Origin: Rhodoferax antarcticus ANT.BR
GTDB lineage: Bacteria > Pseudomonadota > Gammaproteobacteria > Burkholderiales > Burkholderiaceae_C
Assembly: GCF_001938565.1 (NCBI RefSeq)
Contig: NZ_MSYM01000018.1
Coordinates: 248,001 to 312,000 of the forward strand
DNA length: 64,000 bases
Reading direction: 5' to 3'
Shown here: piece by piece, positions 10,834 to 21,818 of the stretch
Layout: the number at the start of each line of letters is the position of its first letter
Numbering within the stretch: position 1 is the first letter of the stretch
Program-made: the position numbers and the translations under genes
The notes under the pieces: model-generated
What the model was told of the DNA's origin: nothing
The model's database searches: none
What the model saw: the letters and a program-made list of their open reading frames with translations, nothing else

Positions 10834-12041
10834 TGTGGCTTAGCACCCTGCTTTTGGCCCTGCGCTCCATCCGGCGCAATTTGATGCGCTCGTTTCTGAC
10901 CATTCTGGGCATTGTGATCGGCGTCAGCGCGGTGATCACCATGGTCACCGTGGGCAACGGTGCCACCCTGTCGGTGCAAAACCAGATCACCGGGCTGGGC
11001 ACCAACCTGCTGCAACTCCGCCCAGGCCAACGCATGGGCGGGCCTGGCGGCGGTGCTGGCGCGCCCGCGTTTCGCGAAGCGGACGCCACCGCCATCATCA
11101 GCCAGGTCAGCGGCCTGCTGGCGGTCGCACCCGAGGCGCGCACCTTTGCCAGCATCGTGGCAGACAGCCGCAACTGGAACTCCAGCGTGATCGGCAGTAC
11201 CAACGACTGGCTGGTGACCGGCAACTGGAAGCTGCTGAGCGGGCGCGAATTCACCGAAGAGGAACAACGCGGCGGCGCGTCGGTATGCATCGTGGGCACC
11301 ACCGTTCAACGCGAGCTGTTTTCCGGCAGCAGCGCGCTGGGCGCCATGATTCGGGTGAAACAGATCACTTGCGAAGTCATCGGCGTGCTGGACTCCAAAG
11401 GCCAGGGCGCGTTTGGCAATGACCAAGACGATGTGGTGCTGATGCCTCTGCACACGCTGCAGCGGCGCATCACCGGCCACACCCGCATCAACACCCTGCT
11501 GGTGTCGATGCAAGACAGCGCCGACCCGGTGCGCGTCAAGGCGGCGCTGACCGACTTGCTGCGTGAGCGGCGCAAGCTGGCCGAGGCCGAAGAAGACAAC
11601 TTCAACGTGCTCGACACCAAACAGCTCAGCGAAACCTTTGCCAGCACCACCAAAGTGCTGACCATGTTGCTGGGTGCGGTGGCCGCTGTGAGCCTGCTGG
11701 TGGGCGGCATTGGCATCATGAACATCATGCTGGTGAGCGTGACCGAGCGCACCCGCGAAATCGGCCTGCGCCTGGCGATTGGCGCGCTGGAGGGCGAGGT
11801 GCTGCTGCAGTTTTTGATAGAAGCGGTGGTGCTGTCAGCACTAGGCGGGGTGGTTGGCATCGTGCTGGCCACCGGCGCTTCAATCGGCTTGGCCAGCCTG
11901 ATGGATGTGCCCTACGTTTTCAATTTGGGCGTGAACGTGCTGTCGTTTGTGTTCTCAGCCGCGATTGGGGTGGTGTTTGGCTACTTTCCGGCGCGCCGGG
12001 CGGCCCGGCTGGACCCGATCGAGGCGCTGCGGCACGAGTGA
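10833..12041 (+). CDS. macB: MacB-type ABC transporter permease
   Basis: A 402-residue FtsX/MacB permease. One N-terminal membrane helix (about 20-45, FLTILGIVIGVSAVITMVTV) is followed by a large periplasmic domain (about 50-275) and three C-terminal helices with the conserved stretch GIGIMNIMLVSVTERTREIG. It completes the tripartite pump, which in this family exports macrolides, peptides or siderophores; the substrate here is unknown. A degenerate second copy of its last 150 bp lies at 13816-13959. Confidence 0.9.
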   Translation: MWLSTLLLALRSIRRNLMRSFLTILGIVIGVSAVITMVTVGNGATLSVQNQITGLGTNLLQLRPGQRMGGPGGGAGAPAFREADATAIISQVSGLLAVAPEARTFASIVADSRNWNSSVIGSTNDWLVTGNWKLLSGREFTEEEQRGGASVCIVGTTVQRELFSGSSALGAMIRVKQITCEVIGVLDSKGQGAFGNDQDDVVLMPLHTLQRRITGHTRINTLLVSMQDSADPVRVKAALTDLLRERRKLAEAEEDNFNVLDTKQLSETFASTTKVLTMLLGAVAAVSLLVGGIGIMNIMLVSVTERTREIGLRLAIGALEGEVLLQFLIEAVVLSALGGVVGIVLATGASIGLASLMDVPYVFNLGVNVLSFVFSAAIGVVFGYFPARRAARLDPIEALRHE

Positions 12042-12320: not shown

Positions 12321-13805
12321 ATGAAACCAACTGCCCAAACCGCCCATCCCCATACCCGTGCCGATCTGGTTCACATTGCCACCCAGGCCATGATTGAGCG
12401 CGGGCTGGAACCCGAGTTCTCAAACCAGGTCAAGCAGCAGCTTGAGTCGATCAGCGGGCTCGGCCATGAGAGCGGCCCCGACATCCGTGACCTGACCCAA
12501 CTGCTGTGGTGCTCAATCGACAACGATGACTCGCTCGACCTGGACCAGTTGACGGCATGCGAGGCGCTGCCCAAGGGGGCGGTGCGGCTGTGGGTGGCCA
12601 TTGCTGATGTCGATGCGCTGGTGCGCAAGGGCTCGGCTATCGATCGACATGCCCACATCAACACCACCTCGGTCTATACCTCAGCGCGCATTTTTCCGAT
12701 GCTGCCTGAGCGCCTGTCGACCGACCTGACCTCGCTCAATGAGGGTCAGGATCGCCTTGCGCTGGTCACGGAAATGGTGTTCGATGCCGATGGCGCACTC
12801 AGTGGCTCCACGGTCTACCGTGCCGTGGTTCGCAATCAGGCCAAGTTGGCCTACGACGCCGTTAGCGCCTGGATCGAGGGCGCAGGCGAGTTGCCTGCGC
12901 CCGCTGCCAAGGTCAAGGGCATGGATGCCCAACTGCACACCCAGGATGATCTGGCGCAACGTCTGCGCGTGCGCCGCCGAACCGCGGGCGCACTGGAGTT
13001 TGAGACCTTCCAGCCGCGGGCCGTGTTCGATGGCGAACAGGTGGTCGACATTCGCCAGCAGCTGCAAAACCGCGGCCGCCAGTTGATTGAAGAAGTGATG
13101 ATTGCGACCAACGGCTGCACCGCGCGCTATCTGAGCCATCACGGGGGTGCCTCGCTGCGGCGTGTGGTGCGTTCGCCTGAGCGCTGGCTGCGCATCGTGG
13201 CGGTAGCAAAGGAGTACGGTGAAGCGCTCCCTACTGAACCAGATGCCAAGGCACTGGAAGCCTTTTTGGCACGGCGCCGGCGTGCCGACCCGCTGCGCTT
13301 TCCCGATCTGTCGCTAGTCATCGTCAAGCTCATGGGCCGGGGCGAATACGTGGCGGAGATCCCAGGCGCCGAGCCGATCGGCCACTTCGGTCTGGCGGTG
13401 CAGGATTACACCCATTCGACGGCACCGAACCGGCGCTATCCCGACCTAATTACCTCGCGCCTGCTGAAGGCGGCGCTGGCGCACCAGCCCCACCCCTACA
13501 GCAATGCTGAACTAGGGCAACTCGCCGAGCACTGCACCCGGCAGGAAGACGCAGCGCAAAAAGTCGAACGACGCATGCGCAAGTCTGACGCGGCGCTGCT
13601 GCTGGAATCCCGCTTGGGAGAGTTCTTTGATGCGGTCGTCACGGGGGCCACCCTTCAGGGCATTTGGGTGCGCGTTTTCACGCCCCCCGCCGAAGGCAAA
13701 CTGGTCTCAAACGGGGCAAACCTGGGGGTCGGAGACAAAGTACGCGTAAAACTCATCGCCGCCAACGTGGAGCGCGGCTTCATTGACTTTGAGCTGGCGG
13801 GCTGA
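12321..13805 (+). CDS. RNB-domain (RNase II family) exoribonuclease
   Basis: A 494-residue protein with the RNB catalytic signature SIDNDDSLDLDQ near residue 67, whose aspartates coordinate magnesium in RNase II/R. The RNB end motif follows: YTHSTAPNRRYPDLITSRLL near residue 370. A short C-terminal S1-like segment (GIWVRVF...LGVGDKVRVKL) completes it. There are no N-terminal cold-shock domains, so it is shorter than RNase II (about 640) or RNase R (about 810). It should degrade single-stranded RNA 3' to 5'. ATG 12321 is preferred over the TTG 15 bp upstream. It is flanked by an antitoxin fragment and a macB remnant, which suggests it arrived as cargo. Confidence 0.85.
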   Translation: MKPTAQTAHPHTRADLVHIATQAMIERGLEPEFSNQVKQQLESISGLGHESGPDIRDLTQLLWCSIDNDDSLDLDQLTACEALPKGAVRLWVAIADVDALVRKGSAIDRHAHINTTSVYTSARIFPMLPERLSTDLTSLNEGQDRLALVTEMVFDADGALSGSTVYRAVVRNQAKLAYDAVSAWIEGAGELPAPAAKVKGMDAQLHTQDDLAQRLRVRRRTAGALEFETFQPRAVFDGEQVVDIRQQLQNRGRQLIEEVMIATNGCTARYLSHHGGASLRRVVRSPERWLRIVAVAKEYGEALPTEPDAKALEAFLARRRRADPLRFPDLSLVIVKLMGRGEYVAEIPGAEPIGHFGLAVQDYTHSTAPNRRYPDLITSRLLKAALAHQPHPYSNAELGQLAEHCTRQEDAAQKVERRMRKSDAALLLESRLGEFFDAVVTGATLQGIWVRVFTPPAEGKLVSNGANLGVGDKVRVKLIAANVERGFIDFELAG

Positions 13806-13815
13806 GTCGCAGAGC

Positions 13816-13959
13816 GGCTGATGGACGTGCCCTATGTCTTCAACGGGCGTCAACGTGATGTCGTTTGTTTTCTCAGCCGCGATTGGGGTGGTATTTGGCT
13901 ACTTTCCAGCCCGCCAGGAGGCAAGATTGGACCTGATCGAGGCGCTGCGGCATGAATAG
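13816..13959 (+). pseudogene. degenerate copy of the macB 3' end
   Basis: The sequence parallels 11896-12041 of the intact permease: CTGATGGA(T/C)GTGCCCTA..., TCAGCCGCGATTGGGGTGGT and GATCGAGGCGCTGCGGCA are shared. Many third-position differences and a 2-nt deletion within the stretch encoding FNLGVN destroy the frame. By eye roughly 85% identity, so this is a diverged allele or paralogue rather than a fresh duplication. Confidence 0.85.
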
Positions 13960-13974
13960 ATTATTATTTAATTG

Positions 13975-14010
13975 ATAGCTGTCCGCGCTTATTCAGTAAG
14001 GGCTAGAGCC
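13975..14010 (+). repeat. 37-bp dispersed palindromic repeat, after macB remnant
   Basis: Plus-oriented copy, ATAGCTGTCCGCGCTTAT then CAGTAAGGGCTAGAGCC. It follows the macB remnant just as another copy follows intact macB, but in the opposite orientation. Confidence 0.8.
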
Positions 14011-14108
14011 TATTTTCATTCAATACGCTCGGCGATTGGCCTCTGGGCTATTGGTATGTTAAGGTTACGCAAATCCGTTTTAACCCCTTTGAAAGAGAGT
14101 CTTCACGC

Positions 14109-14564
14109 ATGACTGTTATACCTTGCGCACGCACGTTTCTCATCGCCACTAGCTTCGCGCTGACCTGTTTTTCAAGCAGCGTCGCTGCCGAAATGGTCAG
14201 TACCAAGGGCAATACAGTGAATATGCGCGCGAAGCCGAGCACTCAGAGCGAGAGGTTGTGGGAGTTGGACAGAGGCTACCCATTGCGCGTCCTCAAACGC
14301 CAAGGCAAATGGGTGCAGGTGCAGGACTTTGAAAACGATCGCGGCTGGGTCTACGCCCCCCTGACAAGCCGTACGCCATACCACATCGTCAAAGCCAACG
14401 TCGCCAACATTCGCACCGGGCCTGGCACCAAATACCGCGTGATTGCCCGCGCCAGTCGCGGCGACCTGCTGCGTACCAAGGCCAAAAAAACCGGATGGGT
14501 CAAAGTGGAGCAATCGAACGGCCAGATGGGCTGGATGTCCAAGAAATTGGTGTGGGGCTGGTAG
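14109..14564 (+). CDS. secreted protein with two bacterial SH3 domains, copy A
   Basis: A 151-residue protein with a signal peptide (cleavage expected near Val-Ala-Ala at residues 25-27). It has two SH3b domains, about 28-87 (MVSTKGNTVNMRAKPSTQSE) and about 92-150 (IVKANVANIRTGPGTKYRVI). The repeated N-x-R-x-x-P/G-T pattern is typical of SH3_3 modules that bind peptidoglycan or partner proteins in the periplasm. This copy keeps its native upstream region, with a GAAAGAGAG ribosome-binding-like stretch before the ATG. It converges with purN. Confidence 0.85.
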   Translation: MTVIPCARTFLIATSFALTCFSSSVAAEMVSTKGNTVNMRAKPSTQSERLWELDRGYPLRVLKRQGKWVQVQDFENDRGWVYAPLTSRTPYHIVKANVANIRTGPGTKYRVIARASRGDLLRTKAKKTGWVKVEQSNGQMGWMSKKLVWGW

Positions 14565-14614
14565 GCCGCTTGCGGGTTCTGTCGGGGCCCTGAAAAAAAT
14601 AACGGGCCTGGTAA

Positions 14615-15208
14615 CTATTGCACCTGCAGCAAGCTCGCCACCGCCTGTGGATAAATCAGATGCTCCTGGCTGAGTACCCGCGCCGCCAGCGTTTCAGCAC
14701 TGTCATTGGGCAAGATTGGCACCACGGCCTGCGCCAGGATTGGGCCGTGATCCAGCTCGGGGGTCACCAGATGAACTGTGGCACCCGCCAGTTTGCAGCC
14801 CGCATCAATCGCGCGCTGGTGCGTGTGCAGACCAGGAAACGCGGGCAACAGCGATGGATGAATATTCACCAGCCGCCCGGCGTAGTGGTTCACAAAGCCG
14901 GGCGTCAGAATACGCATGAAACCTGCCAGCAACACCAACTGCGGTTGGCCGGGCGTGGCATAGCTGTCAATACGCTGCGCCAGCGCGGTATCAAACGCCT
15001 CGCGGCTGGCAAACGCCTTGTGATCCAGCGATGCGGTGGCTATACCTTGCTGCGCGGCCAGCGCCAGACCTTTTGCATTAGTTTTGTTGCTGATCACGGC
15101 GGCTACCTGAGCCTGATAATTGGCAGCCCAGTTCTCGCGTTTGGAAGCTTTGACGATGGCCAGCATGTTTGAGCCGCCGCCTGAGATCAAAATAACGATG
15201 TTTTTCAT
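14615..15208 (-). CDS. purN: phosphoribosylglycinamide formyltransferase, copy A
   Basis: Third step of purine synthesis: transfers formyl from 10-formyl-THF to GAR. The 197-residue protein starts MKNIVILISGGGSNM, has the folate site LAGFMRILTPGFV and the catalytic signature NIHPSLLPAFPGLHTHQRAI, and ends with the usual D-HGPILAQ region. The ATG at 15208 is the family start; the open frame runs further upstream only because it continues into transposase-derived sequence. In this copy the native upstream DNA beyond about 34 bp is replaced by tnpA, so any expression would have to come from the truncated tnpA's promoter or a very short native promoter. Confidence 0.95.
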   Translation of the reverse strand: MKNIVILISGGGSNMLAIVKASKRENWAANYQAQVAAVISNKTNAKGLALAAQQGIATASLDHKAFASREAFDTALAQRIDSYATPGQPQLVLLAGFMRILTPGFVNHYAGRLVNIHPSLLPAFPGLHTHQRAIDAGCKLAGATVHLVTPELDHGPILAQAVVPILPNDSAETLAARVLSQEHLIYPQAVASLLQVQ

Positions 15209-15219
15209 ACTTGGCTGAA

Positions 15220-17259
15220 TTATGACTTTGACCCCTCCCCCCAGTTTCCGGCGAAAGGTTGCCGAAACTGCGCATTCACCAGCTCGGCCAGCGCCGTCGA
15301 ATAGGTTTCGTCGCGGACATACCAAGCTTGCAACCAGGACAGCTTGGCATACGTTGTGCCCGGGCAGGACTTGGCCATTTTGGTCAAGTCAAGGTTGATC
15401 GCATCGGCCAGGATGGTCGTCATCAGCAAGGTTTTGTCCTTGGCGGTGTCGCCAGTCTTCAGGTGCGTGAAGTGGCGGGTGAAGCCCGTCCACTCATCGA
15501 CCTCCATCAGCAGCTCGGTCATCTTGAGGTGTGGCAGGATCATGGCCGTCTGGTCGATCAGGGCTTGCGCAGCATCGGGCACCGCCGCGTCCAACGATGT
15601 AATTTTCAGGCCCGACGCTGTGGTGATGATGGCGTCCGGCAGATCATTGGCCGGCGCCATGCGATTGACTGTGGTGAGCTGCTCCTCCAGCAATTCCAGA
15701 CGTTCACGCAGGTACTGATCGCAGTCAGTGGCCACAGCCAGCGGCAATTCGCTGGCCAGCTTCAGAGTGACGAACTTCTCGACCGGCACCAGGTATTCGT
15801 CGAAGTCTTTGAACTGGCGCGAGCCTTGCACCCACACGTCGCCCGAGCGCAGCGCGTTCTTCAGTTCCGACAGCGCGCATAACTCGTAGTAACGCCGGTC
15901 GATGCCCTCGTCGGTCAGAACCAGTTTGGCCCAACGTGGCTTGATGAATGCGGTTGGCGCGTCGGCGGGCACCTTGCGGGCGCTGTCGCTGTTCATGCCG
16001 CGCAGAACGTCGATGGCATCAAGCACACCCTTGGCGGCAGGCGCGGCTCGCAGCTTGAGCACGTCGAGGAAATGAGGCGCGTAGCGGCGCAAGTTGGCGT
16101 AGCTCTCGCCAATGTGATGCAAGAAATCAAAATCCGCAGGCCGCGCCAGTGTTTGCGCCTCGGTGACACTGGCGGCGAAGGTGTCCCACGGCATGACGGC
16201 CTCAATAGCGGCAAACGGGTCGCCGCCGTTTTGCTTGGCCTCGATCAAGGCTTGGCCGATACGTCCGTACAGCCGCACCTTGTCATTGATCGCCTTGCCG
16301 CTGGCCTGAAACTGCTGCTGATGCTTGTTCTTGGCCGCGTTGAACAGCTTGCCGATGATGCGGTCGTGTAGGTCGATGATTTCATCGGTGACTGTGGCCA
16401 TGCCTTCGATGGCCAGCGCGACCAAGGTGGCATAGCGTCGCTGCGGCTCGAATTTGGCCAGGTCAGCGGGCGTCATCTGTCCACCCTCGCGGGCAATCTT
16501 GAGCAAGCGATTTTGGTGTACCTGCCGTTCGATGCCAGTAGGTAGGTCGAGCGCCTGCCAGGTTTTGAGACGTTCGATGTGTTCAAGCATGTGGCGCGAG
16601 TTCGGTTTTGCAGGCGATTGGCGCAACCACGCCAGCCAAGTCGCTTTGCTGCCCTCCTTGCGCTTGAGAAGTTCGTCCAGGCGCTGCCGGTGGACGCTTG
16701 TCAGGGTGTCGGTCAGAGCGGCGTGAATGCGCAGGTTGGCGCGGGTGATCGCCTCGGCGCAGATGCGATCCATCACGCCGACCGCTGGCAGCAAAACGCT
16801 CCTGCGCCGCAACCCCTCAGCCAGCTCGCGTGCCAGCACAATACCTTTATCGGTTTGCCAGGCCAGATCGTCCAGGCTATGCACGGCAGTCCGATAATGG
16901 CCCAGCGTCGTGAACGATTGAAAGCCATAGGCTGACTGCAACTCCAACAGATGTTCGCGCCGCGTTTCGGCGCGTTGGCCGTAGTCGTTCCAGATGTCGC
17001 CAGGCAGCTTGAGCTGGTCGGCCACCATGCGCAACAAGGGCGCATCGGGTTCCGCGTCAGCAGTGAGCGCGATGCCCGGATAGCGCATGTAGCAAAGCTG
17101 CACCGCAAAGCCCAGCCGATTTTCCGCACCACGATGCTGTCGAATGCGGGACAGGTCGGCGTCGTTGAAGGTGTAGAGCCGGATCAATTCATCTTTGGTG
17201 TCGGGCAGTGCCAACAGGCTTTCGCGCTCAGTGGCGGACAGGATTGAACGGCGCGGCAT
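15220..17259 (-). pseudogene. tnpA: Tn3/Tn21-family transposase TnpA, C-terminally truncated
   Basis: Starts [20 protein letters not shown] at ATG 17259, with AAGGAG about 6 nt upstream, and matches Tn21-subgroup transposases (normally about 990 residues) without interruption. The last genuine stretch is [18 protein letters not shown], after which three residues from the purN/yceH side lead to a stop, giving about 679 residues. The first catalytic Asp region ([16 protein letters not shown]) is present. The later YVLDGLLYH segment with the second Asp and the catalytic Glu are missing. It should be unable to transpose. The junction at 15242/15243 lies in a run of cytosines. Confidence 0.93.
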
Positions 17260-17412
17260 GCAGGCTCCTTCTTCTTGAAAACGAGGGTTTTTGAGAAGCC
17301 ACACCAGGCCACAGAAGTGACAAGTGAAATCAAGGCGTTGCGATTCTCAAAAATAGTTCTTGAAATGCTATTCTCGATCCCTTATCATTGCAATGAGTTT
17401 CGATAAGAAAGA
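17260..17412. promoter_or_regulatory. divergent promoter and probable res region of the transposon
   Basis: Gap between divergent tnpA and mntA. It holds spaced inverted repeats: TTTTTGAGAA near 17284 against TTCTCAAAAA near 17344, and CTTATC near 17381 against GATAAG near 17402. It is AT-richer than its surroundings. In Tn3-family elements the resolvase site usually lies between divergent transposition genes. Resolvase subsites cannot be assigned by eye. Confidence 0.45.
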
Positions 17413-17709
17413 ATGCCCATGCGCCCGTCCGTTGTGCTTGACATGAAGCGAAGTGCAGTGCGCGAAGCGGTGAACCGCTTTCGCACGGCGAACCCACGCG
17501 TCTTCGGTTCGGTGCTGCATGGCACCGACCGAGAAGACAGCGACCTTGATCTGTTGGTGGATGCACTGCCAGGTGCCACCTTATTGGACTTAGGCGGTCT
17601 GCAAGACGATCTGGAATCGCTGCTCGGCATTCACGTTGATTTGCTGACACCCGGCGACTTGCCGCCGAAATTTCGGGCCAAGGTGCTCGCAGAGGCGCAA
17701 CCGGTATGA
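17413..17709 (+). CDS. mntA: MntA-type nucleotidyltransferase antitoxin
   Basis: A 98-residue minimal nucleotidyltransferase with the signature GSVLHGTDREDSDLDLLVD, the GSX10DXD core of MNT antitoxins. In characterised MntA-HepT pairs this enzyme AMPylates the partner HEPN toxin to silence it; that function is inferred from family knowledge. Two in-frame ATGs lie 6 bp apart (17413, 17419). Its stop overlaps the hepT start by 4 nt, the usual operon arrangement. Confidence 0.88.
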   Translation: MPMRPSVVLDMKRSAVREAVNRFRTANPRVFGSVLHGTDREDSDLDLLVDALPGATLLDLGGLQDDLESLLGIHVDLLTPGDLPPKFRAKVLAEAQPV

Positions 17710-18101
17710 ATGAGACTCGTCTGCCTGATTACATCGATCACATACAGCAGGCCGCAGCGGATGTGTGCAGCTTCGTAGAGGGCTTGGCCAAGGACGACTT
17801 CCTGGCCGACAAGCGCACCCAGCAGGCCGTCATCATGAGCCTCATCATCATCGGCGAGGCCGCCACGAAGGTGATGGAGGGCTATGCCGCATTCACTCAA
17901 GCGCACCCAGCGGTGCCTTGGCGCAACATGCGCGGCATGCGCAACCGAATGGCCCACGGCTATTTCGACATCGACCTCAATGTGGTGTGGGCGACGGCAC
18001 AGGAATGGTTGCCGGAGTTGCTAAAGCAGCTACCTGCCGTGCGCCAAGACGCCACCGACGATGAAGGCCGCGATAGCTCAGAACGAAGCAAGCTATGTTG
18101 A
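17706..18101 (+). CDS. hepT: HepT-like HEPN ribonuclease toxin
   Basis: A 131-residue all-helical HEPN protein (DUF86). The RNase motif R-x4-H-x-Y appears as RNRMAHGYF near residue 80. Paired with the upstream MNT gene it forms a toxin-antitoxin module. The last 20 residues are charged and overlap the resolvase gene by 7 bp, so all three genes are probably one transcript. Such modules near transposition genes can favour element maintenance; that role is inference. Confidence 0.88.
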   Translation: MNETRLPDYIDHIQQAAADVCSFVEGLAKDDFLADKRTQQAVIMSLIIIGEAATKVMEGYAAFTQAHPAVPWRNMRGMRNRMAHGYFDIDLNVVWATAQEWLPELLKQLPAVRQDATDDEGRDSSERSKLC

Positions 18102-18652
18102 TTGGCTACGCTCGTGTTTCTACGTTGGATCAGAACCTCGAATTGCAGCGGGAGGCCCTGATCAAAGCCGGGTGCCAGAAGGTCTTTGAGGACAAGGTGA
18201 GTGGTACGCGGGCTGATCGCCCAGGCTTAGAAAAAACAAAGGAAATGCTGCGCGAGGGAGACACTTTGGTTGTCTGGAAGCTGGATCGTTTAGGGCGCAG
18301 CGTCAAGCAACTGGTCGATCTAGTCGGTGAATTACACAAGCAAGGCATCCAGTTCAAGAGCCTGACAGACGCTATTGACACCGGCACGCCATCTGGCCGG
18401 TTCTTCTTTCATGTGATGGCAAGTCTTGCCGAAATGGAACGTGAGCTGATCGTCGAACGCACCCGCGCCGGACTGGATGTCGCCCGCCAACTGGGTCGCA
18501 AGGGCGGTCGCAAGCCCAAGATGACCGATAGCAAGATTGAGTCAGCCAAAAAACTGTTGGCCAGTGGCGTACCACCCAAGGATGTTGCAAAGAATCTTGG
18601 CGTGTCCGTTCCTACGCTTTACCGCTGGGTACCAGCTTCAACCCAAGTGTGA
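18095..18652 (+). CDS. tnpR: serine recombinase (TnpR resolvase)
   Basis: A 185-residue small serine recombinase. It starts MLIGYARVSTLDQNLELQRE, with the nucleophile Ser near residue 9, and has the arginine-rich catalytic region WKLDRLGRSVKQLVDLV and the E-helix region MASLAEMERELIVERTRAGL. The C-terminal Hin-type HTH ends GVSVPTLYRWVPA. It would resolve cointegrates at res. It appears intact although its transposase is not. Confidence 0.93.
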   Translation: MLIGYARVSTLDQNLELQREALIKAGCQKVFEDKVSGTRADRPGLEKTKEMLREGDTLVVWKLDRLGRSVKQLVDLVGELHKQGIQFKSLTDAIDTGTPSGRFFFHVMASLAEMERELIVERTRAGLDVARQLGRKGGRKPKMTDSKIESAKKLLASGVPPKDVAKNLGVSVPTLYRWVPASTQV

Positions 18653-18681
18653 GCCATGCGCACCGGGCCAGCGGAGTTTGA

Positions 18682-19128
18682 TCAGCCAAACACGGCCGCC
18701 AGTGAGTGGGCGAGGTTGTTCACTTTTTCCAAGTAGGCGATAGACGAAGTGTCGTCTGGTCGCAGACGCTTGGCCGCATCAAGCGTTGCACTGAGGTCGG
18801 CAATGAAATTCCGCTTCTCATCTGGATTGGCGACGCTTTGCATCTGTGCATTGAATTGATCGACATAGGGAGCGGTCAGATCGAGGCGCTGCTCGCCTGT
18901 GATGACGCCTGCGTCGTAGAGCTTGTTCGTCAGTTCTTTGAGTTCATTCTTTGAGATATTGCTCAGGTCTTGTCCGGCCATAATGTTGGTAGCACGATTC
19001 GCTCTTTCTCCATGGTAAACATCACTTGTACCTATGGCCGAGGCGTTTGACGTTGGCTGAGTCAATGCCTTGGTGGGCGACGCATATGAGACGGCACCTT
19101 GTGTGGCTTGAAACCCTTGAATTTTCAT
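18682..19128 (-). CDS. hypothetical protein, transposon passenger
   Basis: A 148-residue protein of unrecognised family, starting MKIQGFQATQGAVSYASPTK. The longer upstream frame runs through the neighbouring terminator, so ATG 19128 is preferred. The middle has a short helical segment (DLSNISKNELKELTNKLYDA) reminiscent of small uncharacterised proteobacterial proteins. No signal peptide or catalytic motif is visible. It lies downstream of the secreted passenger gene on the same strand, separated by a hairpin terminator, and is AT-richer than the host genes around it. Confidence 0.6.
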   Translation of the reverse strand: MKIQGFQATQGAVSYASPTKALTQPTSNASAIGTSDVYHGERANRATNIMAGQDLSNISKNELKELTNKLYDAGVITGEQRLDLTAPYVDQFNAQMQSVANPDEKRNFIADLSATLDAAKRLRPDDTSSIAYLEKVNNLAHSLAAVFG

Positions 19129-19133
19129 ATGTA

Positions 19134-19168
19134 CCCCAAAAAGGCAAAGTGCCCGCGAGGGCACTTTG
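19134..19168 (-). terminator. intrinsic terminator after the secreted passenger gene
   Basis: A 10-bp stem CAAAGTGCCC/GGGCACTTTG with a 4-nt loop at 19145-19168. On the minus strand it is followed by CC and a T5 run, so it ends transcripts of 19173-19760. Confidence 0.75.
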
Positions 19169-19172
19169 GGAA

Positions 19173-19760
19173 TCAAAGAATAGAAATTGAGTCGCTCAGG
19201 GTGTTCCAGGGCGAATTCGTTGAGGTGTTCTGATAAGAGAACGATCCGTTTTGCTTTCCGTCCAGATTCCAATACTTCCGGAAACCCACCACCGTTTGAC
19301 CAGCAGAACGTGGCAGAACATAAGCACTGCCATTCCAGCAGATGGTCTGTGTAAGATAGTTTGCCGAAGTAGGCAAAACACTGCCGTTGTAGCGCGCTAC
19401 CGGCACATTGCCATAGCCGAATTCATCGGTCACAACGCGCAACTGTGCTCCACCATGGTCGTAAACGGTGGTGGTTTGAGCAGCTGCGATGCTTTCCCAG
19501 CCAACGTTGCTCGAACCAACGTTGCTGATTTGCAGAGAGCTAAGGGCTGGTGCTGGACCTGCCGCAGCAAGTGCAGCTTTCGCACCGGAACGATTCGCGG
19601 CGCTGGGCACTGGCACCGTCGCCATTTGGGCCGCATCCGTCGAGCTTGGCACGGTGCCAAAGAAAATTTCAACTTGCTGAACAGTGGTATCGGCAGCGTA
19701 AGCAAACCCGGCCATAAAAGCCAAGGCAGAAACGACAGTGGTTTTGACAAAATGATTCAT
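19173..19760 (-). CDS. secreted protein, DUF4879/YolA-like, transposon passenger
   Basis: A 195-residue protein starting MNHFVKTTVVSALAFMAGFA, with a clear signal peptide ending near Ala-Tyr-Ala-Ala. The C-terminal half carries the runs VYDHGGAQLRVVTDEFGYG, QTVVGFRKYW and TNSPWNTLSDSISI, which I associate with the DUF4879 (YolA-like) family of small secreted proteins. That assignment is from memory and not certain. Function is unknown. ATG 19760 is chosen for the signal peptide. It is oriented inward from the intact transposon end. Confidence 0.65.
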   Translation of the reverse strand: MNHFVKTTVVSALAFMAGFAYAADTTVQQVEIFFGTVPSSTDAAQMATVPVPSAANRSGAKAALAAAGPAPALSSLQISNVGSSNVGWESIAAAQTTTVYDHGGAQLRVVTDEFGYGNVPVARYNGSVLPTSANYLTQTICWNGSAYVLPRSAGQTVVGFRKYWNLDGKQNGSFSYQNTSTNSPWNTLSDSISIL

Positions 19761-19952
19761 TGCGACTTTCTGGTTGTTCTGCGGTGATGACTGCGCAACA
19801 CCTCGCAACTGCACGTTGCGAAATATACACCAGAAAAGCCGTGCTGTCCATCGGAAAAAACTGGCAAAGAAGCCGCATTACGAACTTCGAGGCACCGCTC
19901 TTCATCATGCGTTCGTCCAATGCTGCATCGCTGAGTCCAGCCTCGACACAGC

Positions 19953-19990
19953 CTTAACGTACTTTAAATTCCGTTTTCTGAGACGACCCC
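19953..19990 (-). mobile_element. 38-bp right terminal inverted repeat of the Tn21-type transposon
   Basis: Read inward on the minus strand it begins GGGGTCGTCTCAGAAAACGG and ends ...TACGTTAAG, 38 bp in all. This is the recognised Tn21-subgroup terminal repeat. Its outer edge touches the duplicated SH3 segment, fixing the exact insertion point. No matching left end is found. Confidence 0.93.
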
Positions 19991-19997
19991 TTCACGC

Positions 19998-20453
19998 ATG
20001 ACTGTTATACCTTGCGCACGCACGTTTCTCATCGCCACTAGCTTCGCGCTGACCTGTTTTTCAAGCAGCGTCGCTGCCGAAATGGTCAGTACCAAGGGCA
20101 ATACAGTGAATATGCGCGCGAAGCCGAGCACTCAGAGCGAGAGGTTGTGGGAGTTGGACAGAGGCTACCCATTGCGCGTCCTCAAACGCCAAGGCAAATG
20201 GGTGCAGGTGCAGGACTTTGAAAACGATCGCGGCTGGGTCTACGCCCCCCTGACAAGCCGTACGCCATACCACATCGTCAAAGCCAACGTCGCCAACATT
20301 CGCACCGGGCCTGGCACCAAATACCGCGTGATTGCCCGCGCCAGTCGCGGCGACCTGCTGCGTACCAAGGCCAAAAAAACCGGATGGGTCAAAGTGGAGC
20401 AATCGAACGGCCAGATGGGCTGGATGTCCAAGAAATTGGTGTGGGGCTGGTAG
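19998..20453 (+). CDS. secreted protein with two bacterial SH3 domains, copy B
   Basis: Protein identical to the copy at 14109-14564, with the same signal peptide and two SH3b domains. The transposon terminal repeat ends 7 bp before the ATG, so the native promoter and the GAAAGAGAG ribosome-binding-like stretch are lost. Expression, if any, must rely on outward transcription from the element and a weak GAGACGA stretch. Confidence 0.85.
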   Translation: MTVIPCARTFLIATSFALTCFSSSVAAEMVSTKGNTVNMRAKPSTQSERLWELDRGYPLRVLKRQGKWVQVQDFENDRGWVYAPLTSRTPYHIVKANVANIRTGPGTKYRVIARASRGDLLRTKAKKTGWVKVEQSNGQMGWMSKKLVWGW

Positions 20454-20503
20454 GCCGCTTGCGGGTTCTGTCGGGGCCCTGAAAAAAATAACGGGCCTGG
20501 TAA

Positions 20504-21097
20504 CTATTGCACCTGCAGCAAGCTCGCCACCGCCTGTGGATAAATCAGATGCTCCTGGCTGAGTACCCGCGCCGCCAGCGTTTCAGCACTGTCATTGGGC
20601 AAGATTGGCACCACGGCCTGCGCCAGGATTGGGCCGTGATCCAGCTCGGGGGTCACCAGATGAACTGTGGCACCCGCCAGTTTGCAGCCCGCATCAATCG
20701 CGCGCTGGTGCGTGTGCAGACCAGGAAACGCGGGCAACAGCGATGGATGAATATTCACCAGCCGCCCGGCGTAATGGTTCACAAAGCCGGGCGTCAGAAT
20801 ACGCATGAAACCTGCCAGCAACACCAACTGCGGTTGGCCGGGCGTGGCATAGCTGTCAATACGCTGCGCCAGCGCGGTATCAAACGCCTCGCGGCTGGCA
20901 AATGCCTTGTGATCCAGCGATGCGGTGGCTATACCTTGCTGCGCGGCCAGCGCCAGACCTTTTGCATTAGTTTTGTTGCTGATCACGGCGGCTACCTGAG
21001 CCTGATAATTGGCAGCCCAGTTCTCGCGTTTGGAAGCTTTGACGATGGCCAGCATGTTTGAGCCGCCGCCTGAGATCAAAATAACGATGTTTTTCAT
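20504..21097 (-). CDS. purN: phosphoribosylglycinamide formyltransferase, copy B
   Basis: Same protein as copy A, differing at two synonymous bases. ATG 21097 faces the yceH start (21111) across only 13 bp, so the purN promoter must lie within the yceH coding region and the yceH promoter within purN. This copy keeps its native upstream DNA and is the better candidate for the functional gene. Confidence 0.96.
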   Translation of the reverse strand: MKNIVILISGGGSNMLAIVKASKRENWAANYQAQVAAVISNKTNAKGLALAAQQGIATASLDHKAFASREAFDTALAQRIDSYATPGQPQLVLLAGFMRILTPGFVNHYAGRLVNIHPSLLPAFPGLHTHQRAIDAGCKLAGATVHLVTPELDHGPILAQAVVPILPNDSAETLAARVLSQEHLIYPQAVASLLQVQ

Positions 21098-21110
21098 ACT
21101 TGGCTGAATT

Positions 21111-21818
21111 ATGACTTTGACCCCTCCCCCCTTCGGCAGCGCACCGCCCCCTACGGCGGCACCTGTCCTCCTGCTCACCCCCATCGAGGCGCGCGTGCTG
21201 GGCACGTTGATGGAAAAGGCCCGCACCGTGCCAGACAGCTACCCGCTGTCTCTGAACTCGCTGATGCTGGGTTGCAACCAAAAAACCACCCGTGACCCGC
21301 TGATGAACCTGTCCGAGCCCGACGTGGCCGACGCGGTGAGCAGCCTCAAAGAGCGCCATCTGGTGCGCGAAAACAGTGGCAGCCGTGTGACCCGCTTTGA
21401 GCACAACTTCCAGCGCGGCGTGGGTGTGCCAGAGCAATCAGCCGTGCTGCTGGGCTTGCTGATGCTGCGCGGCCCACAAACCGCCGCCGAGTTGCGCCTG
21501 AACACCGAGCGCTGGTACAAGTTTGCCGATATTTCTTCAGTGGAAGGCTTTTTGGAAGAACTGCAGGACCGGGCAGATGAAAAAGGTGGGCCGCTGGTCA
21601 TCAAGCTGACCAAGGCACCCGGCGCACGTGAGCAGCGCTGGGCGCATCTGCTGTGCGGCGCGGTGGATGAAGCGGCACTGGCACAGGGTTCTGGCGCACG
21701 TGCTGTGGACGGCGCTGCACTGGATCGCATCGCCCGCCTGGAGGCCGAAGTGGCAGAACTACGCGCCACCGTGAAGCAACTCTGCGCTGAGCTGGGCGTC
21801 GCTGGCGCGGCTGGCTAA
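21111..21818 (+). CDS. yceH: YceH family protein (DUF480)
   Basis: A 235-residue DUF480 protein. Two winged-helix-like units include [20 protein letters not shown] and [14 protein letters not shown], then [22 protein letters not shown]-terminal coiled segment starts near residue 203 ([20 protein letters not shown]). The family is widespread in Proteobacteria with no settled function. The first 21 bp are duplicated at 15222-15242, where they run into tnpA. Confidence 0.9.

Follow-up and report, generated by a model that had tools for sequence, protein, structure and literature searches.

A Tn3-family transposon remnant between two copies of a 1.14-kb host segment with intact purN genes in Rhodoferax antarcticus ANT.BR

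A Tn3-family transposon in Rhodoferax antarcticus ANT.BR lies between two direct copies of a 1.14-kb host segment, each carrying an intact purN, as the original prediction had stated. The window, which is the whole 64,000-nucleotide stretch of DNA that was analysed, is located on contig C9 of a 4.0-Mb draft genome of 20 contigs. The predicted order, which runs from the left flank through SH3, purN and the start of yceH into a truncated tnpA, and from the 38-bp transposon end into a second SH3-purN-yceH, is confirmed by the repeat borders and the profile matches. Illegitimate joining between two sister chromosomes, one with the insertion and one without it, is the best explanation that we can offer, and we hold it with about even confidence. 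The rearrangement is of an ordinary known kind in an unusually clean form, and it is of interest mainly because homologous recombination would undo it exactly. The features of the locus, in window coordinates, are as follows.

14102-15242, plus strand: host repeat, copy 1, comprising TTCAC, the SH3 gene, purN (minus strand) and the first 7 codons of yceH
14109-14564, plus strand: SH3-domain protein gene, copy 1 (PF06347/PF08239)
14615-15208, minus strand: purN, copy 1, intact (TIGR00639, 225 bits against a cut-off of 150.1)
15222-15242, no strand: junction microhomology ending in CCCC, where host and normal tnpA are alike at 15 of 21 bases
15243-17259, minus strand: Tn3-family tnpA with the C-terminal third missing (profile matches NF033527 and PF01526)
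17413-18101, plus strand: MntA-like nucleotidyltransferase and HepT-like gene pair, a putative toxin-antitoxin (PF01909 and PF01934, above cut-off)
18095-18652, plus strand: serine resolvase, tnpR (PF00239, PF02796)
18685-19760, minus strand: two passenger genes, one for a DUF4879 protein and one ORF that matches no family
19953-19990, minus strand: terminal inverted repeat of 38 bp, intact (right end)
19991-21131, plus strand: host repeat, copy 2, comprising TTCAC, SH3, purN and the start of yceH
21111-21818, plus strand: yceH (DUF480), complete, running on from copy 2 (PF04337)

Positions 14101-15242 and 19990-21131 match each other over 1142 bp as an ungapped repeat with an offset of 5889 and two mismatches, which makes a duplication far beyond chance. 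The true repeat is 1141 bp long and begins with TTCAC at 14102 and 19991, because the 38-bp inverted repeat occupies 19953-19990; the C at 14101 is a chance match. Its borders are exact, one being the outer edge of the 38-bp repeat and the other the break in tnpA. That TTCAC borders the 38-bp repeat supports the prediction that the transposon inserted just before the SH3 gene. The two silent differences that had been claimed between the copies are both found in purN, one at 14885 G/20774 A (codon 108, CAC/CAT) and the other at 15014 C/20903 T (codon 65, GCG/GCA). The 197-codon frame is full-length in both copies, and copy 2 purN encodes the same protein as copy 1, because both differences are silent. 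Two random transitions would both be silent with a probability of 0.16, so this provides no evidence of selection. As the original prediction proposed, the near-identity of the copies may come from a recent event or from conversion. Among the 19 purN loci that were given as loci in a search of 60 genomes, rather than among all matching ones, the base at 14885 is G, as in copy 1, in 14, A in three and C in two, and the base at 15014 is G in nine, C in six, T in one, A in one and a gap in two; these counts speak, if weakly, for copy 1 having the older base at both sites.

In copy 1, the SH3 gene keeps its native upstream DNA, with what by reading is a purine-rich stretch resembling a ribosome-binding site before the ATG, and purN, which is on the strand of the truncated tnpA frame, follows this frame directly. 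In copy 2, SH3 is preceded by the transposon end and has no native stretch of this kind, and the arrangement of purN on the opposite strand to SH3, with yceH diverging from the purN start, is kept. From this anatomy, SH3 would have its own upstream region only in copy 1 and purN only in copy 2, so that neither gene would be without its own upstream region in both copies.

The tnpA frame matches the Tn3-family profile NF033527 with 736 bits against a cut-off of 500, and ends after position 661 of 954 in this profile and 99 of 389 in PF01526. Outward from tnpA, the element carries the MntA/HepT-like pair, which scores 35.8 and 41.1 bits with the NCBIfam MntA and HepT models, below their cut-off of 60, followed by the serine resolvase, two passenger ORFs and the 38-bp repeat. 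A Tn3-type transposase and a resolvase gene are present, but only the right one of the pair of ~38-bp terminal inverted repeats is, and the flanks share 1141 bp instead of the 5-bp target duplication that is the norm in the Tn3 family; the element is a remnant and not a complete family member. No left end is found in the locus, and none of its own in the assembly at up to three mismatches, where the only two repeat-like sites are the right end in the window and another element's end on contig C7.

The element shares its 38-bp inverted repeat with the ISPa38-like, or tnpA-MNT-HEPN-tnpR, group of the Tn3 family, and the same core is also found on plasmids and in other genomes. A member of the same group, L028, has tnpA, resolvase and MntA/HepT-like pair in a common order with the window element, and L028, L053 and L052 are 84-95% identical to it in nucleotides over the aligned core. 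While L053 (PFJY01000136.1) is bounded by two repeats, the window element has the right one only. Compared with its relatives, it lacks the left repeat and the tnpA C-terminus, a loss of about 1.0-1.2 kb against L052 and L053, carries the DUF4879 passenger in addition, and is flanked by a duplication of 1.14 kb instead of 5 bp. An apparently equal distance of both breaks from the insertion point (about 1.17 kb lost by comparison with L053, against 1.14 kb duplicated) was dropped as a coincidence, because the loss is 993 bp by comparison with L052, the nearer relative in DNA.

The passenger region is not present in L028 and L053. Positions 18610-18652 and 19916-19952 point to a probable decayed second copy of the 3' end of the resolvase gene at the right end of the transposon, and because of this tail the DUF4879 passenger was perhaps gained by recombination with another element's end. 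Elsewhere in the genome, contig C7 holds a 681-bp tnpA fragment (L025 6444-7204) that is 98.5% identical to the window tnpA. Another Tn3-type end interrupts it about 63 bp past the point where tnpA breaks off in the window, and the element past this interruption carries what by reading of the letters is seemingly an acetyltransferase-like gene. Being an interrupted 681-bp remnant and not intact, the C7 copy was rejected as donor of the element.

At the join between yceH and tnpA, the sequence before the break differs in five other tnpA sequences, i.e., L026, L027, L028, L029 and the fragment L025 of the same genome, and the similarity among the 19 aligned purN loci spans purN and the start of yceH and extends, to within a base, no further than the join. 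Agreement at 15 of 21 bases or better occurs in 2.4e-5 of 962,577 host/transposon 21-mer pairs (about 23 pairs), with the transposon sampled at every third base and the length of 21 picked after the alignment had been seen. By this measure, the join would have used one of the best matches on offer. Because of such agreement it looks guided by microhomology, of the kind that template switching or illegitimate end joining would be expected to leave, and it does not look like a transposase-cut end. The earlier proposal of an illegitimate sister-chromosome join is therefore upheld in one part, the joining of yceH to tnpA, by the other tnpA sequences and the microhomology; the sister partner is plausible but unproven, and three or more other routes would lead to an identical sequence.

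Under the sister-chromosome explanation, a Tn3-family transposon of roughly 5.8 kb would have inserted 7 bp before the ATG of the SH3 gene, after which inserted and uninserted copies of the region would have coexisted as sister chromosomes during or after replication. A DNA end or growing strand would have run from the left flank via SH3-purN into yceH on the uninserted copy, and the yceH end would then have been joined to tnpA of the inserted copy at the 21-bp partial match ending in CCCC. The product would consist of the left flank and SH3-purN-yceH', followed by the transposon minus its left end, and would continue through the right end to the second SH3-purN-yceH. The assembly contains the three junctions, the microhomology and the loss of the tnpA end, whereas the uninserted sister partner and the link to replication are inferred. 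The sequence fits this explanation and its rivals equally well, and every biological route needs a join of uninserted host DNA to tnpA. Short-junction tandem duplications, which are known from work on enteric bacteria, likewise give a direct repeat of a host segment with a novel join at few matching bases, as with the CCCC within the 15 of 21 here; the present case differs in having one border set by a transposon end and the transposon itself between the two copies.

Unlikely, though best placed among the rivals, is a single step coupled to transposition, in which only the right repeat would be transferred, the 3' end of the left flank would be extended through SH3-purN-yceH by strand displacement, and a template switch into the tethered transposon strand at CCCC would produce a 1.1-kb target duplication rather than one of 5 bp. 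This route needs no uninserted sister. Passages of PMC5371812 have replicative transposition run by single-strand transfer followed by host replication, and passages of PMC4133298 describe one-ended transposition of Tn3-family elements (Tn3/Tn21) with variable endpoints; the window element likewise has one intact repeat and a variable other end, but differs in its 1141-bp target duplication and in a join at host-transposon microhomology. This microhomology suggests generic template switching, which argues against the single step. In classical work, moreover, products of one-ended transposition kept short, transposase-made target duplications of 5 bp.

A survey of related inverted-repeat ends also gave no second example. 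It drew on 120 loci and covered 148 unique ends whose flank was 60 bp or longer. The loci were 80 of 330 tnpA relatives and 40 regions representing 41 of the 43 inverted-repeat matches obtained from 399 genomes of the order, of which 24, the source genome among them, had such matches; G348:C91 and the C7 site of the source genome were left out, and six further ends were excluded as too near the locus end. Flank sequence repeated in the same orientation was found at four ends, including the window (L176) as positive control, and the pattern of host duplication was seen at none of the 147 other ends. On coordinates only, the remaining three were rejected as second cases: the repeat of L066 is a tandem repeat wholly within the flank, the 81% match of L102 falls inside tnpA and is probably a nested insertion into a related tnpA, and that of L100, with 84% identity over 50 bp, is located about 200 bp inward of the end. 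Directly outside the Tn3-type end of L066, positions 13010-13218 form a perfect 104-bp tandem repeat. Because only the window end among the 148 shows the pattern, the duplication looks like a rare accident and not a habit of the element group, within a survey that had inside sequence of at least 5 kb at 124 of the 148 ends and at least 10 kb at 95, and in which larger units or contig-end cases could be missed. A narrow literature search, including passages of PMC4133298, PMC3189936 and PMC5371812, gave no description of a Tn3 insertion with a host duplication of kilobase size at its borders. That Tn3-family transposition could by itself, in a single step, duplicate target DNA on the kilobase scale seems improbable to us.

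Quite improbable, too, is the arrival of a fragment running from tnpA' through the right end to SH3-purN-yceH, which would have come from an inserted strain, for instance by transformation, and been built in by homologous recombination on its right side and by an illegitimate join at CCCC on its left. The two silent differences could then be strain polymorphism brought in from the donor, but they fit later mutation equally. The genome has a ComEC homologue, and an older insertion in the same interval is apparently also bordered by a host duplicate (a macB tail, 86%); on the other hand, the donor allele was not found, and dprA, which is needed for efficient transformation, looks broken in the assembly, which weakens the transformation form. 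The dprA match is in two pieces in different reading frames (L198 214-1487, on C17 at about 51.2-52.5 kb), either because the gene is broken or because the assembly has a wrong base.

Even less probable is a 5889-bp circle of SH3-purN-yceH' and tnpA' up to the right end, which would have formed from an inserted chromosome and been integrated into an uninserted one by one homologous crossover, or would still coexist with the uninserted chromosome. The structure is exactly that of a Campbell-type integrant, and an uninserted chromosome with a free circle would give the same contig graph, as would more than one copy of the 5889-bp unit. However, two steps are required, and the eight proteins of the unit that were scanned (SH3, PurN and six transposon ORFs) gave no replication-protein match. 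Least probable is an assembly artefact, or a mixed population mis-joined by the assembler, for which the 20-contig draft state, another repeat of 1296 bp with one copy at a contig edge, and a dprA frame change that could be a base error would speak, but the yceH'-tnpA' join has only 4 exact bases, presumably too short for overlap fusion, the window is without N, the copies are separated by two differences, and the other copy of the 1296-bp repeat is contig-internal. The junctions look real, and repeats of about this length are only partly resolved in the assembly, as the 1296-bp repeat has one copy at a contig edge and the other inside.

The element would no longer be able to move by itself. 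If the repeats recombined homologously, 5889 bp would be lost and the uninserted allele restored with no scar, or the unit would instead be amplified. An insertion that separates a gene from its ribosome-binding site can become harmless and, in principle, fully reversible, because the flanking host duplication supplies an intact gene and would let RecA excise the element scarlessly. If the single-step, transposition-coupled reading were true, transposition would itself have given an insertion that homologous recombination could reverse without scar. The clean borders make the locus a good natural test case for transposition-coupled duplication versus ordinary illegitimate recombination.

The host locus was compared by a query of 13700-15400 (left flank, copy 1 and a little of tnpA) against the 60 genomes, the source genome included, and matches were obtained in 48 of them, many to purN and others to a macB-like tail, a short dispersed repeat or tnpA. 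The genome closest in purN DNA (G005, 82%) has macB-purN-yceH with neither the SH3 nor the RNase gene between, and in G024 about 1.1 kb of seemingly other coding sequence separates macB from purN. SH3 protein matches (E <= 0.001) were found in five of 20 genomes (G001-G020), four of them over most of the length; three of these four have a purN match, with SH3 and purN on different contigs. Two of the three, G003 and G006, have no SH3 match in the stretch fetched around purN, and in G005, the fifth genome, the match covers 31 residues and shares a contig with purN at a distance of about 13 kb. The earlier emphasis on SH3-purN is corrected accordingly, as the relatives examined do not show SH3 beside purN, and this adjacency appears, as sampled, to be local to the source lineage.

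A 140-bp macB tail (11898-12037) is repeated at 13818-13956 with 86% identity and a 2-base gap, directly after an RNB-domain-like RNase gene at 12321-13805 (named by reading). Close relatives of this RNase gene, with 73-80% identity, were found in 7 of 34 further genomes from the genus and show no macB match within the up to 1.5 kb fetched on each side. An older insertion bordered by a host duplicate seems to have occurred in the same interval, because macB and purN are adjacent in G005, the macB tail is duplicated and the RNase relatives have no macB match in the flanks fetched. Close by, positions 13964-14023 hold a short dispersed repeat of about 60 bp, which has many relatives across genomes of the genus.
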